DNA from: Oligoflexales bacterium
GTDB lineage: Bacteria > Bdellovibrionota > Oligoflexia > Oligoflexales > Oligoflexaceae
Reading direction: 5' to 3'
Assembly: GCA_015232735.1 (NCBI GenBank)
Contig: JADFZC010000210.1
Coordinates: 1-5,385 of the forward strand
DNA length: 5,385 nucleotides
Shown here: one piece after another, positions 1 to 5,385 of the stretch
Position numbering within the stretch: the stretch's first letter is position 1
Layout: every line of letters begins with the position of its first letter
Position numbers and translations under genes: made by a program
Notes under the pieces: generated by a model
Seen by the model: the letters and a program-made list of their open reading frames with translations, nothing else
Database searches by the model: none
What the model was told of the DNA's origin: nothing

Positions 1-3000
1 ATAAAAGCCTGAAGATTTCGCGTGAAATGTAAAAGTATCCCTTTGTCAACCGCTCTGTTTCTTACAAACTTTTGGAAAATCCCCACTTTTTCCAAATTAT
101 TTTCCTGGCTTTCTGCCTGAGTCCCGTACAGATCCGACAAATCAAGAAGCACCTCAATATTTTCCGGCAAATCCGTTTTACCAAAATCCTCTTTCTGAAT
201 TATCACCTTCTCAATGCCTTTGGCATTAAGAGCGCTTTTGGCAAATTCCTGGGTATCCTTATTGACCAGGATGGCAATTTTTCCCTCCGGAAAAGCATAA
301 GGTGACACATCGACCTTTGTTTTCACCCAGTGTTTCCGGTTGACCGTCAGCTTTGCATCCGATTGCAAAACAGGAGAGCTTTCCGCTTTCTTTTTGACTT
401 TCAGCATATATGACTGCCGTGCGAATGGATATGCAGGCAGGGATATCCTTCTTGGCTTTTGGTTCCCGTATATCATATTCCAGTCGATATCTATGCCTGA
501 CACCCATAGCTCGGCAATCTTTGAATAATCCTTGTCCTCCATCACGATTTTCAAAAATTCCTTTCCCGCTCTTCCGCTTACCAGCTTTTGAGCTGCGCTT
601 CTGCCTTTTTTCACGTTTCCTGTAAAAATATCAGCATTATGCTTTCCCTGAAGATAATCATGCAGTTTTTCCAAAATTTCCGCCGCTCCGCCCGCTACAA
701 CAGCTATCCTTTCCTCCATACCGCCTCTGCTCATTTGCAGTGTGTAAGCAAGATCCGTGAGATTTACCGTGTATTCATATTTTTCGACCGCACAAATATT
801 TCCTTCGGAACTGCCAATGAATTTTTCCCTGAAATTCTTAAGCAGAAAAGAAGCCATCCCTTCAACCGACAGATTGTCCGAAACCTCTGACAATAACACG
901 CTTATATTGTATTTTCTGTTCACCAAATCAATAAGCCTGTTCAAGGCGACATTGTCAAAGCCGTATTCAATAAATTCCTCTGAAACATCGATCTCCCTTT
1001 CCGGTACATGTATCACTTCTGAAACCAAATGCTTCAATTCCAAAACCAGCTTTGTTTTCAGCTCAGATAAATCAGCGCCTGAATGCGAAGCGCATACGGC
1101 CTTTGTCCTTGACCTTTCAAGGAAGCCGATCAAAGCCTGAGAATACGCCTTCAGCCTGTCTTCATCTTTTGCGGATAATACAAATATTCTCTTTTCAGGA
1201 ACTTCGGGCACCGACTGTCTCTCTTCTTCATGATATTCCTCAATTGCCACATGGGCATACGCTCCACCGAAACCGAACGAGCTTATGCCCGCCCTTCTTG
1301 GGATTTCACTTCCATCTTCGTCCCGAAGCCTGTTCCAGTCAATAGTCCTGTTTGCCAGATAGAGTGGACTTTTTTCCAATTTTATTTGTGGATTTAACTC
1401 ACTGAAGTGAAGATTGCCAGGAATCTTTTTGTGCTTCATTGACAGCAGAATTTTTATGAGTCCCGCTATTCCCGCCGCTATTTCCAAATGTCCAATGTTT
1501 GTTTTTACGGAGCCCACTGCGCAGTGCGGATTTTTGGAGATCTCTTTCCCATGTTTCCTGTACATATTTTCAAAGGCCTTTTTCAGACCATTTATCTCGA
1601 TAGGATCCCCAAGGGGTGTTCCGGTGCCATGCGCTTCGATATAACTTATACTCCACGGCTTAATACCAGCTTTTTCCCATGCACGCTCGATAAGTTCGGA
1701 TTGTACATTTGGATTGGGAGCCGTAAGCGAGGCGGCCCTTCCGCCATGCATTACGGAAGTTCCAATAATCAAACCATATATGTGATCGCCGTCATCTCTG
1801 GCTCTTGAAAGAGGCTTAAGCAATACGGCTCCCGTTCCCTCGCCTCTCACATATCCATTCGCGTTTTTATCAAAGGTTTTGCATCTTCCGTCAACACTGA
1901 GCATTCCCGCCTTACTGAAGGAAATATATAGCGTCGGGCTCAGGATTGCGTAGACACCGCCTGCAATCGCGATGTCGCAGTCTCCACTTTTTATCGCCTC
2001 CACAGCCCTGTGAATTGCTACAAGAGAGGATGAACAGGCCGTATCCACGGGCTCGCTTGGTCCATGCAGATTCAGTAAAAAGGAGACGCGGTTTGCAAGT
2101 ATGGAGTTTGCCACTCCTATATAAGACAAGGCCTCGACATCGCTTTGCCCCCTGCTTAAATAATCGTTATAGTCCGACGAGCCCGCCCCCACAAACACTC
2201 CGGTCTTCGTTCCATACAGATCCTGTGGACTGTAACCTGCATCTTCAATTGTTTTCCAGACAGTCTCCAGAAATATTCTCTGCTGCGGGTCCATCAGCTC
2301 TGCCTCCCTCGGGGAAAGTCCGAAGAAAAGCGGGTCGAATTTATCGATATCCTTTATAAAACCGCCCCATTTGACATTTGTCCTGTTTTCATCATTTTTT
2401 GGATCTCCGTAGTAATCTTCCCAATTCCATCTCTCTTTTGGAATTTCAGATATCATATCTTTCCCTGATACAAGGTTATCCCAGAAAGTATGAAGATCCG
2501 GCGACTGAGGCAAAACACCGCTTAGGCCGATTATAGCCACTGGTTCAGTGTTCCTTCCATATTCTGTATTTTTACAATCATAAGCCTCACAGGTTTCGAT
2601 AATATCCAGTCTCTTTTCAATCTTCCTTGATCTCTTTGTAAATTCTTTGTACTGTGTCCCCTCTTCAATTGGGACTTTTTCATCTTGCTCTTCATATTCT
2701 TCATATGACCTGTCCGGAAGATCTCCACTGCCTTCAATGTTTCCCTTAAGGACATCCGAATCCAATTTTCTCGTCAAATCGCGTTTGTATTCCCTTACTA
2801 AGTAATTTGAAAAAGATGACAGCGATTTATGCTCAAAAAATATCGATGGCATCAGGTTTATCCCGAATTTCTCATTGAGACTGTTGCTCATCATGGTAAA
2901 CGTTATGGAATCAAACCCAAACTCATTAAGATCCATCTCCACATCGATATCTTCACGTGCCATATGCAAAATTTCCACCACCTTATCAATCAGCACCTGG

Positions 3001-5385
3001 TTCAGCTTTTCCAAAATAAGGTTCTCTTCCATAACCGATTTGTGCTCGCCTTTTTCCTTTGCCTTTGCTGGATTTTTATCCATTTTTGTGCCAAAAACCT
3101 CTCTCAGCCTCCTTTTTTGTCCTGAAGCCACCATAAACTGATTCACATCCGTACATAAACCCATTTCAAATGCCTTGATTCCATCCTGCGTCAAAAGAGG
3201 CCTCATTCCAAAATTGGACTCAAAGAATTTTTCAGTCTGGCGGTCAACTCTCATGCCGCCCTCGCTCCACAGCGGCCAGTTTATCGAAAGCGTTTTTCCG
3301 TGGCGTCTTCCCTCCTTCCTTGCTCTCTCCCGCTCCTCAGAAAAGCTATCCAGAAAACTGTTTGCGTAGGCATAATCTGACTGTCCCAGATTTCCGGTCA
3401 TCGCCACGAACGATGAAAACATTACAAAAAAGTCCAGAGGTTCATCTTTTAAAAATTCATCCAGATAAATTGTTCCATTCAATTTTGGCTTGATAACTTC
3501 ATAAACGCTTTCTTTTGATTTCTTGAATATGTAAGAGTCCCTGAGAACCCCGGCTGCATGGATAATGCCGTTTATATTTTTATATTTCGTCTTTATCTCT
3601 GAAACCAGCTCCGCAACTTTTTCACGATCAGAAATGTCACATTTCAAAAATATGATCTGCGAACCTAAACTTTCGATTTCCTTCAATTCAAGAAGTTTTT
3701 CAGGACCTGGTTCCGAGCGCCCGATCAGTATCAGCTTTGCATTTATCTTCTCTGCAATGTACCGTCCGAATATCTGCCCCAGACCTCCAGTTCCTCCCGT
3801 TATAAGATATACACCTTGCTCTTTCAAAGGCAGCGGGATATGTTCACCGAAGTTTGAGACTTCCCTTGTCTCCTTTATATATCTGGAGTTACTGACATGA
3901 CGTACTTCAATCTCCCTTTCCAACATCTCTCTTACAATCATGTCAGCGACAATTTCAATATCTCCCGCATCAGCTATCTCGAGTCTTCTGCACTTTATTT
4001 TCGTATTTTCAATGTTCACGCTTCTCAAAAAGCCGCCTGTCGCCTGAAAAACAGGCACGGCTGATGATGTTTCGTTTGCCGAGACATATAATATTTTTAT
4101 ATCTTCCATGCTTTGATTTCTTATAATCGACTGAACAAGATAAAATAATGAAAATATGCTGAAATCAAGACAGTTTTCAATTTTTAGGGCATCTTCGCCC
4201 CTTATCTGCATTGACCATGCATGAACTATGTATGAAGGCAATTTTTTTTCCGATGAAAGCATATCGATCAATTTAAGGTAATCATCTCGGTTTTTATGAT
4301 TTATTTCAAAAACGTCATCTGAAATCTTTTTGAACTGAGCCCCATTTTTTACCAAAATCACTGAGGATGATGAATCTTCGGACGCCGTTCTCATTTTATT
4401 GTACAACCCTTCATTTAAGTCAAACAGCAGTACTTTTCCATGCATCCTATTTTCAACCCCTTCTGAAAAAGGCTTCTCTTTCCATCGAGGTTGAAAGTAA
4501 ATCACGTCACTTGCAGCAGCATCTCTGTATGCCTTTAAAGAAAAATCCCTCATGCCAAGGAGCAGGTGCCCCGCCTTATCAAAGATCCTTATGTCAAATT
4601 TCTTGATTTCACTCTCAGTTGACTTTAAGACAGTATGAACATAACACTTTTTTGTTATAGGGCGTACCACCCACAATTCGTCTATCGAAAAAGGCAGGTA
4701 TATCGTTTTTTTATCGCCTGAGGCCAAAATCCCTATTGTTGTCTGGAGGGCTCCATCCATTATTGAAGGGTGAAGCTTAAGATCCGCATGATTATCCAGT
4801 GCGTTATCTGGCAATTCAAGATATCCCAATGCTTCATTATCATTTAAAAACAGATCATTTATTGTTCTGAAACTTGATCCGTATTTAAATCCAAGCCGCA
4901 TGAAAATATCATATATTTCATGCTGTGCCATGCATTTTTTGAATGACGATCTCATTTTTTCAATTTCCATTTTTTCCTGCTGTAATACGTCACAAAAATC
5001 AAGTTTTCCCTGCGAATGCACAGTTCGCCTGTTTTCATTTCCATATGTCCATATTTCATAGTCGATCTCGTCATTATTACTGTATAAACTTATGAAGGTC
5101 TCTTTTTCCCTCCTTGCATTTTCATCCTCGACAACTATTGGACGTGACCATATGACATTTCTAATTTTTTTCACTTCTCTGCCAAGAGCCAGCTCACCTG
5201 CGACTCTCGCCATTTCCAGATAGGCAACACCAGGAAATATTTTTTTGTTGTCTATGATATGATCCTTAAGATAAAACTCATTTCCAGTCAGCGTTTTTTT
5301 AAATTTCTGTTCGTATATATCAGATACATTCTGCTCTACAAGTTCATGAAGTTTGAACTCCAGAATTTTTTTGTCCTGCACAATT
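1..5385 (-). CDS. Modular trans-AT type I polyketide synthase, internal fragment (DH-KR-ACP / KS-[ACP-like]-KR...)
   Basis: One minus-strand frame (complete codons 3-5384) is open for 1,794 codons with no stop, so both ends of the gene lie outside. I translated it throughout and recognised, in order, DH, KR, ACP, KS, a long post-KS linker and the start of another KR. All catalytic residues of the DH, KR, ACP and KS are visible. The protein is an assembly-line enzyme: each module extends an acyl chain held on an ACP by one malonyl-derived unit and processes the beta-carbon. No AT domain follows the KS or lies between DH and KR, and the linker carries the LAYTLQ and LPAYPF landmarks typical of trans-AT synthases, so a discrete AT elsewhere should load the ACPs. 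There is no frameshift or internal stop. The family and domain order are near certain. The product, gene name and true gene length cannot be judged from this fragment. Confidence 0.97.
3..362 (-). other. Second ketoreductase structural subdomain, N-terminal part, residues about 1675-1794 (cut by window edge)
   Basis: After the linker closes, the chain enters a new Rossmann-like half-domain: VNRKHWVKTKVDV, then GKIAILVNK (1701-1709), a helix, EKVIIQKEDF, NIEVLLDLSDLYG (1742-1754) and DKGILLHFTRNLQAF (1780-1794). This fits the structural half of a KR that follows a KS directly in trans-AT modules, where an ILxLTxGLQxF-like strand and helix is usual. No DH motif precedes it. The catalytic half would lie beyond base 1, so NADPH binding and catalysis cannot be checked. 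If complete, this module would leave a beta-hydroxyl. A degenerate, non-reducing KR remnant cannot be excluded. Confidence 0.75.
405..782 (-). other. Post-KS linker, C-terminal part, residues 1535-1660
   Basis: The canonical linker resumes with YTVNLTDLAYTLQMSRGGMEERIAVVAGG (quoted as two adjoining pieces: YTVNLTDLAYTLQ at 1538-1550 and MSRGGMEERIAVV at 1551-1563). This matches the LAYTLQxGREAMEERLA block of trans-AT synthases. A helical region follows, then DYSKIAELWVSGIDIDW (1619-1635), which corresponds to the W-x-x-G-x-x-I/V-D-W segment, and finally RISLPAYPFARQSYML (1646-1661), the usual closing strand that runs back over the KS. The part is complete, so the ACP-like insertion has not destroyed the linker. 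Confidence 0.85.
810..1076 (-). other. ACP-like domain lacking the serine (Asn1478), residues 1437-1525, embedded in the post-KS linker
   Basis: This segment reads as a carrier-protein fold. Residues 1455-1514 align without gaps to 803-862 of the true ACP in this protein, with 15 of 60 identical by hand count. The shared landmarks are IDV, GFD, NxK and the spacing to the final helix (ASFL against SNYL). At the attachment position the sequence is YGFDNVALN: Asn1478 (codon AAT, bases 951-953) replaces Ser826 of the true ACP. It therefore cannot carry phosphopantetheine in the normal way. The helix III signature PSIFFEH is also lost. The domain lies between the two halves of the KS linker rather than at a module end. 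A structural or recognition role is possible but is inference. I have an uncertain recollection of ACP-like inserts at this place in other trans-AT synthases. It could also be an unrelated helical insert, which the gapless alignment makes less likely. Confidence 0.72.
1083..1226 (-). other. Post-KS linker, N-terminal part, residues 1387-1434
   Basis: The linker opens with an acidic stretch (YHEEERQSVPE) and then VPEKRIFVLSAKDEDRLKAY (1395-1414), the standard start of the linker subdomain that wraps the KS flank. The helix SQALIGFLERS follows. In an ordinary trans-AT synthase this helix runs on after a short gap into the LAYTLQ segment. Here the two are separated by about 100 residues that include the ACP-like domain at 810-1076. 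Confidence 0.8.
1227..2546 (-). other. Ketosynthase (KS), residues 947-1386, complete active site
   Basis: This thiolase-fold condensing enzyme takes the chain from the upstream ACP onto its cysteine and joins it to a malonyl unit by decarboxylative condensation. The catalytic triad is complete: Cys1117 (bases 2034-2036) in EPVDTACSSSL, His1252 in EAHGTGTPLGDP and His1299 in TNIGHLEIAAG. Other landmarks are DPLFFGLSPREAELMDPQ, DIAIAGGV, GYVRGEGTGAV and GRAASLTAPNPN, the last typical of trans-AT KS domains. The length of about 440 residues is normal. Near the C-terminus FGFGGAYAHV replaces the usual GG[TA]NAHV, so a conserved Asn is Tyr1376. Because the preceding module has DH and KR, an alpha,beta-unsaturated substrate is expected. 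No AT follows. The core is GC-richer than flanking domains. Confidence 0.97.
2547..2780 (-). other. ACP-to-KS interdomain linker, residues 869-946
   Basis: About 78 residues join the ACP to the next KS. The first part is polar and acidic, with a Glu/Asp-rich stretch around EEYEEQDEKVPIEE (895-908). The second part is basic and probably helical (KRSRKIEKRLDII, 917-929), just before the KS opening EPVAIIGLSG. No motif of another enzyme is seen. A flexible tether is the simplest reading. The basic segment may pack against the KS entrance, which is inference only. Confidence 0.7.
2781..3029 (-). other. Acyl carrier protein (ACP), residues 786-868, Ser826
   Basis: This four-helix carrier domain holds the growing chain on a phosphopantetheine arm. 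The attachment site is Ser826 (bases 2907-2909) in EFGFDSITFT, a good match to the GxDS motif. Helix I is the LILEKLNQVLIDKVVEIL stretch, followed by the AREDIDVEMDL loop; helix III and what follows carry NLMPSIFFEHKSL, a form common in trans-AT carrier proteins. The domain sits after the KR and before the next KS, closing the DH-KR-ACP module. It is a single ACP rather than a tandem pair. I see no Trp after the DSI motif of the kind associated with beta-branching ACPs, but I would not rely on that alone. Confidence 0.95.
3135..3839 (-). other. Ketoreductase catalytic subdomain (KR), residues 516-750, predicted B-type
   Basis: This short-chain dehydrogenase fold uses NADPH to reduce the beta-keto group on the ACP-bound chain. 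It has the nucleotide loop GVYLITGGTGGLG (524-536; GGTGGLG at bases 3777-3797), HAAGVLRDS (609-617), and the catalytic set Lys634 (IKPKLNG), Ser658 (MFSSFVAMTG), Tyr671 (GQSDYAYAN, bases 3372-3374) and Asn675. The end, LSINWPLWSEGGMRVD, is the usual trans-AT KR tail. Asp616 matches the second Asp of the LDD motif, and there is no Trp eight residues before the Tyr, so by the standard sequence rules it is B-type and should give the D-hydroxyl. That would feed the preceding DH. All catalytic residues are present, so activity is likely. Confidence 0.93.
3840..4502 (-). other. Ketoreductase structural subdomain (KRs), residues 295-515
   Basis: This is the non-catalytic Rossmann-like half that precedes and braces the catalytic KR. 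It opens with IYFQPRWKEKP, the usual strand leading into a KR after a DH, then HGKVLLFDL (315-323), alternating strands and helices, and the element VPVFQATGGFLRSVNIEN (443-460), which matches the typical helix and strand before the catalytic half. It lacks the NADPH-binding glycines, as expected for this half. No AT or methyltransferase is inserted. Base composition here is noticeably AT-rich (hand count about 33% GC over 4141-4380), and the coding strand carries an A8 run that the reading frame passes through intact. Confidence 0.85.
4524..5348 (-). other. Dehydratase (DH) domain, residues 13-287
   Basis: The double-hotdog dehydratase removes water from a beta-hydroxyacyl-ACP to give an alpha,beta-double bond. 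The first half has the catalytic histidine His42 (bases 5259-5261) in DHIIDNKKIFPGVAYLEMA, which matches the HxxxGxxxxP motif except that Asn46 replaces Gly. The second half has GFKYGSSF (165-172), where the usual YGPxF proline is Ser170, and LHPSIMDGALQ (204-214) with the catalytic aspartate Asp210 (bases 4755-4757). Length, about 275 residues, is normal. The domain begins near HELVEQNVSDI, the usual DH entry point after a KS linker, so it is essentially complete. Both catalytic residues are present, so I infer it is active, but the two motif substitutions leave some doubt. It is followed directly by a KR, as in DH-KR-ACP modules. Confidence 0.92.

Follow-up and report, generated by a model that had tools for sequence, protein, structure and literature searches.

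The window, as the whole analysed stretch of 5385 bases is called here, encodes a polyketide synthase in which a carrier-type domain without the phosphopantetheine Ser lies within the flank of a ketosynthase (KS). Examination of the sequence and of its relatives confirms that this feature, noticed in the original prediction, is real. Such a domain is present in many bacterial antibiotic-making assembly lines and is probably a fixed structural part of them and not debris, because the pseudo-ACP is kept and reshaped in several bacterial groups. In the reading to which we give about even odds (0.5), the pseudo-ACP would be a captured ACP that has been kept for an architectural or docking task within the unit formed by the KS and its flanking subdomain (FSD), and that carries no substrate. 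Directly supported are the carrier fold and the loss of Ser, the grouping of the inserts with hosts that are scattered, their purifying selection and distinct conservation pattern, and the largely intact KS active sites.

The window protein and its interrupted flank

The window (41.8% GC) consists of one minus-strand open frame running from 5384 to 3 and open at both ends, and the five plus-strand ORFs present in a list of those of at least 100 aa are antisense to it. According to Pfam the domains of this frame are in the order DH, PF21394 stretch, KR, ACP, KS and FSD, all encoded on the minus strand. The DH domain of the upstream module is found at 4509..5348 (residues 13-292; PF21089 and PF14765), followed by the PF21394 stretch at 3927..4439 (residues 316-486), which we take to be the N-terminal structural KR subdomain, and by the KR domain of the same module at 3261..3815 (residues 524-708; PF08659, E 5.2e-54). 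A genuine ACP with the motif GFDS (2799..2996, residues 797-862; PF00550) is placed immediately upstream of the KS, which extends over 1404..2546 (residues 947-1327; PF00109, E 2e-95; PF02801, E 8.9e-38). The translation of this KS has the Cys-His-His active site (DTACSSS, EAHGTGT and KTNIGHL), and its identity to the proteins and loci gathered for comparison is at most about 67%. The window protein is incomplete, and among its 16 Pfam matches there is no AT domain (PF00698), as expected for a trans-AT synthase. With a KS followed by an FSD it is of the trans-AT PKS type.

The FSD is divided in two. Its first half (1113..1181, residues 1402-1424), with SAKDEDRLKAY, matches positions 1-23 of the PF22336 profile and its second half (642..767, residues 1540-1581), with LAYTLQ, matches positions 26-67, the match being split around an insert with an ACP fold at 810..1082 (residues about 1435-1525). 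Within the insert, PF00550 matches residues 1450-1514 (843-1037) with a score of 36 bits, the cut-off being 20.8. The insert has the fold of a functional acyl carrier protein and lacks its Ser: alignments place the codon AAT (951..953), encoding Asn1478 in the motif GFDN, at the phosphopantetheine position. No NCBIfam carrier family was matched by the piece searched. A structural model of KS, FSD and insert was too weak (pLDDT 65.9, pTM 0.55, from an alignment of 10 rows) to place the insert relative to the KS. No solved KS with an insert was found among the best 60 of 215 rows of a profile search of PDB sequences; 9nju aligns over profile positions 2-130, but at the far end of the chain, where its own ACP would be.

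Occurrence of the insert and the residue at the carrier position

A first search with the linker region gave three proteins, namely the window protein, P0002, which has an insert with Trp replacing Ser (GFDW), and P0003, which has no insert. A lone mutant or a sequencing error was rejected as an explanation, as P0002 has Trp at the same place and many more such inserts appeared in the next search. This search, made from P0002 (120 of 597 matches listed), led to sample 1, with 338 KSs from 125 proteins (122 from searches, among them that of the window, and 3 obtained by translating a plasmid locus), which were classed with profiles built for this analysis. A search from a different insert, that of P0026 (120 of 537 matches listed), led to sample 2, with 118 new proteins, 537 KSs and 45 inserts. 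In sample 1, 52 of the 338 KSs have an ACP match and a gap of 140-199 between KS and LAYTLQ, a share that is not a natural frequency because the proteins were gathered by their likeness to insert-bearing flanks. The gap is 40-69 in 258 of the 263 KSs without an ACP match. The insert occupies one fixed place and the linker lengths fall in two clean classes. In these counts two of the 54 long linkers of sample 1 were dropped (P0092, low complexity and no ACP match), eight linkers of sample 2 with a gap of at least 100 but no ACP match were left uncounted, and 24 KSs of sample 1 and 21 of sample 2 had no recognisable post-linker.

Ser is absent from the carrier position in all 52 inserts of sample 1 and in 43 of the 45 of sample 2, whereas the other ACPs have it in 397 of 409 cases (same proteins, sample 1) and in 622 of 626 (sample 2). 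Moreover, 44 of 45 distinct full-length linkers from genome and plasmid loci, which partially overlap with the protein sets, are without Ser. The residues found in sample 1 are Pro (13), Ala (6), Trp (5), Gln (5), Arg, Thr and Val (4 each), Leu, Gly and Glu (2 each), and one each of Asn (the window), Lys, Phe, Tyr and Met. The original prediction had named a carrier fold and a conserved non-Ser residue among relatives as its support; the fold is there and the absence of Ser is conserved (95 of 97 inserts in the two samples) but no one replacement residue is, so that Ser is missing, rather than Asn selected. The accompanying idea of a recent loss, AAT being one transition from AGT, has to be abandoned because Ser is missing from nearly all relatives. 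Inserts with Ser are P0134 (GFTS) and P0197 (GMDS) in sample 2 and L070 (GTDS) among the DNA loci. As the nearest two tree rows of P0197, P0207 and P0243, both have Pro at this position, the Ser of P0197 may be secondary. Ser-bearing inserts are few, yet Ser is not strictly forbidden.

Twelve ACPs counted as genuine in sample 1 have no Ser or a gap at this position. One of them, P0052, is in fact an insert, its KS being truncated at the protein start, and several are Ser-less ACPs located elsewhere in modules. This second kind, outside the KS flank (P0015:3917-3977, P0063:758-818, P0116:1480-1541, P0041:2322-2380, P0103:3656-3714 and P0102:3568-3629), is found before a genuine ACP, near the protein end or after KR/FSD, and in the last case about 430 residues without domain assignment precede the next ACP. 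The five nearest carrier-tree rows of these domains are each other or ordinary ACPs, not KS-flank inserts. A strongly diverged KS-flank insert (YLINVND), below the threshold of the ACP profile, was also seen at 12001-12540 of the Klebsiella grimontii plasmid pNY3A (L002), in a long PKS frame for which no gene is listed. In the plasmid collection no close DNA relative of the window insert was found, the one match, of 22 bases, being due to chance.

A Bacillus velezensis cluster just upstream of pdhA (L064) contains two inserts. From gene order we take this to be the macrolactin cluster, with the genes MlnD and MlnG. A review describes MlnD as ending in a KS and MlnE as having an N-terminal KR (PMC9113145), which fits the domain order seen at L064. 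The insert is also found in disorazol DisB of Sorangium cellulosum (P0178), in Burkholderia gladioli (P0174), and in Bacillus inaquosorum, Brevibacillus, Paenibacillus, Parabeggiatoa, Acidobacteriota and Anaerolineae, among others. In genome samples, matches at E 1e-25 occur in 1 of 398 genomes from the phylum and in 3 of 245 from the family of the Paenibacillus locus genome (G010), in 5 of 44 of the genus of B. inaquosorum (G009), where the match of G013 covers the ACP part only and was not counted as an insert, and in 10 of 39 of the family of Brevibacillus dissolubilis (G001). There are four matches each in G557 and G001 and three in G010 and G686. Several KS-flank pseudo-ACPs can be present in one genome (L067-L070 in G557; L045, L060 and L065 in G010), and the Ser-bearing insert of G557 (L070) has an extra loop residue. 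The genus of G009 includes another synthase (L073 and L074), with an open frame of 1918 aa and a Val-type insert, and in G686 this synthase is located on a different contig from the macrolactin-like matches.

Origin, selection and possible roles

For the trees 49 of the 52 inserts of sample 1 passed a length filter and P0052 was added by hand; the carrier trees are built on 72 columns and have few well-supported forks. On the carrier tree of 95 inserts plus 220 other ACPs, 4 changes account for the label "insert", versus 81.5 when shuffled, and only 1 change is forced by starred branches, so the tree is compatible with a single origin. An earlier tree with 49 inserts among 448 rows needs 5 changes, at least 3 of them on starred branches, and a tree of 106 rows made with another program needs 4. 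When the first carrier tree is rooted on a genuine ACP, most inserts belong to two groups, one with 36 inserts among 55 rows (support 72) and one with 14 among 22 (support 69). Both groups also contain genuine ACPs, which leaves room for more than one origin. These trees suggest one or a few families of inserts across several bacterial groups. The six nearest rows of the window insert are all pseudo-ACPs.

The hosts are scattered. On a tree of 313 KSs the insert label changes 34 times, at least 23 of them on starred branches, versus 47.8 when shuffled, so that a tie to one KS clade has to be rejected; on the FSD tree it also changes 34 times, at least 4 on starred branches. This scatter, along with the existence of related KSs without it, indicates that KS chemistry in itself does not require the insert. 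In Candidatus Parabeggiatoa the KSs of L004 and L005 are 52% identical and their inserts 83% identical, which fits an insert that may have moved or been converted, perhaps with its flank, independently of the KS core. Alternatively, an ancestral insert may have been lost repeatedly.

The insert is under purifying selection, constrained but loosely, as its dN/dS in five pairs (0.17, 0.21, 0.32, 0.26 and 0.41) compares with lower KS values in the four pairs where these were computable (0.06, 0.06, 0.07 and 0.16). In the sole computable pair the upstream ACP has 0.10 and the insert 0.41. For 21 pairs from seven loci with alike inserts in the family of G001, dN/dS is 0.41 in the insert stretch, which includes some variable linker, and 0.04 in the KS. 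That the insert is looser than the KS and, in one pair, than the upstream ACP counts against an architectural or docking role. It would agree with the insert being a functionless evolutionary remnant of recombination, folded only to avoid misfolding in the KS flank, as would its scattered presence on the KS tree and a total column entropy above that of genuine ACPs (142.8 versus 133.8, sd 1.4, in subsampled genuine ACPs, with rows taken regardless of kinship). For a different ACP, the non-active alternative has been worded as an "evolutionary structural remanent" (PMC7619045). We consider a remnant rather unlikely, in view of the one or few families in several bacterial groups, of purifying selection, of the two insert copies of the macrolactin-type cluster, both of which are retained in two Bacillus species with synonymous distances of 1.1-1.3, and of 11 newly tightened positions.

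These positions, which come from the same comparison, are columns 3, 6, 10, 15, 19, 27, 30, 36, 37, 38 and 60, and include acidic positions of loop I, two Leu of helix II and E-K-Y at the end of helix II. At 9 of these 11 the window insert agrees with the most frequent residue, columns 3 (Val) and 36 (Arg) being the exceptions. Fifteen columns are looser in the inserts; they include the Ser position and its Gly, the column 5 Lys and columns 44-50. The assignment of columns to helices, and the use that genuine ACPs make of the relaxed positions, are assumed here. Such a profile is more suggestive of a new role than of mere decay, a structural or docking role being the likelier. A decoy imitating the real ACP, as had also been proposed, is disfavoured because ACP-typical positions (the Lys after helix I and T/F/Y of helix III) are among the relaxed ones.

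The insert could instead be a docking site for an enzyme acting in trans (AT, ER, acyl hydrolase or tailoring enzyme), held near the module by carrier mimicry. The ACP fold is kept and the mean net charge is more acidic than in genuine ACPs (-7.7 versus -4.3), and the free AT of trans-AT systems needs a docking place (PMC11907408). However, relaxation at ACP-typical positions, namely the Lys of column 5 and helix III columns 44-50, fits poorly with mimicry, and a trans-AT must serve all modules whereas only a minority of KSs have the insert (52/338, in a sample drawn by similarity). We regard this explanation as unlikely.

A link to inactive, non-elongating KSs was also considered and found no support: the Cys motif is kept in 50 of 51 insert-bearing KSs and HGTGT in 48 of 51 (two have Gln for His and in one no motif was found). 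As the host active sites are mostly intact, the insert is not a mark of dead KSs. The region after the insert, which presumably holds the lateral LINKS helices, shows no difference in median length (107 residues with and without insert), and this counts against the architectural or docking reading.

The module context was counted after thinning near-identical KSs to 644, with four such tests per sample. The upstream module has a KR in 50 of 57 insert KSs versus 232 of 396 without insert (p 8e-6, uncorrected). This was first noticed in sample 1 (21/25 versus 89/147, p 0.025) and is repeated in sample 2 alone (29/32 versus 143/249, p 0.0002). An upstream DH is present in 41 of 57 versus 225 of 396 (p 0.03), a downstream KR is rarer after insert KSs (36/71 versus 266/406, p 0.023, uncorrected), and for a downstream DH p is 0.3. 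Tree-independent pairs gave 5.5 same versus 1.4 opposite for the upstream KR, with a median p of 0.22, and for this reason the association is a trend and only a lead. The enrichment after KR-containing modules would be expected of a regulator of chain transfer that contends with the upstream holo-ACP for access to the KS entrance or to the KR and so gates the hand-over of reduced intermediates. Such a gate seems very improbable to us, given that the association is weak once corrected for relatedness and that the ACP-typical positions are not preserved.

For an architectural or docking element, the course of events may have been as follows. An ACP would have been captured between the FSD halves, once or a few times, would have lost its phosphopantetheine Ser and would have been kept as a rigid helical-bundle subdomain, whose extra surface could position the KS-FSD unit against a neighbour, either the feeding KR-ACP arm or a laterally packed KS. 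The action through protein contacts and the choice of partner are what we infer. A bolder version, which we hold tentatively and think less probable, is that the captured Ser-less carrier might have become a new in-line docking module, one able to pass from a KS core to an unrelated one, which organises KR-ACP hand-over or synthase packing and forms an architectural part of many trans-AT lines, including those for macrolactin and disorazol. If so, a part of many trans-AT lines would be miscounted as an ordinary ACP.

Relation to known carrier domains and KS flanks

The FSD (PF22336) is the subdomain that hosts the insert, and PF22336 has no room for a domain there; the solved flank of PksL (5eny) is uninterrupted, unlike the insert-bearing FSD. 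The FSD with its LINKS motif is described as mediating lateral KS-KS contacts (PMC11260071, PMC11907408), and an engineering paper of 2024 calls its precise function unclear (PMC11260071). The FSD is also a site at which trans-AT synthases are now re-engineered. A pseudo-carrier in a subset of FSDs is a natural handle on that function, and its presence in known systems (the macrolactin-type cluster and disorazol DisB) makes its role testable at once.

With the carriers of PF00550 the insert shares the ACP fold, G-F-D before helix II and a Pfam score well above the curated cut-off. It differs from them in having no Ser and a relaxed helix III, and in its fixed location within the KS flank instead of between catalytic domains. 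Domain callers based on PF00550 would count the insert as a real ACP, and module predictions can consequently be off by one carrier.

No description of a family of KS-flank pseudo-ACPs was recognised in open-licence full texts, and an earlier one may exist elsewhere. Inactive ACPs are known singly, and the term "ACP0" is in use for them (PMC7619045). The same paper presents a previously unannotated ACP of mupirocin MmpE which, like the insert, comes after a KS in the sequence; unlike the insert it keeps its Ser, is proposed to be active and is located in the KS0-OR linker. In module 9 of the phthoxazolin synthase, ACP9a is a single case of an inactive ACP without Ser and resembles the insert in being a Ser-less ACP-type domain of a trans-AT PKS (PMC5764310). 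ACP9a is one domain, whose place relative to the KS flank is not stated in the available part of that paper, whereas the inserts are a group with a fixed insertion point. What would be new here is the existence of inactive carriers as a conserved group at a fixed place within another domain.
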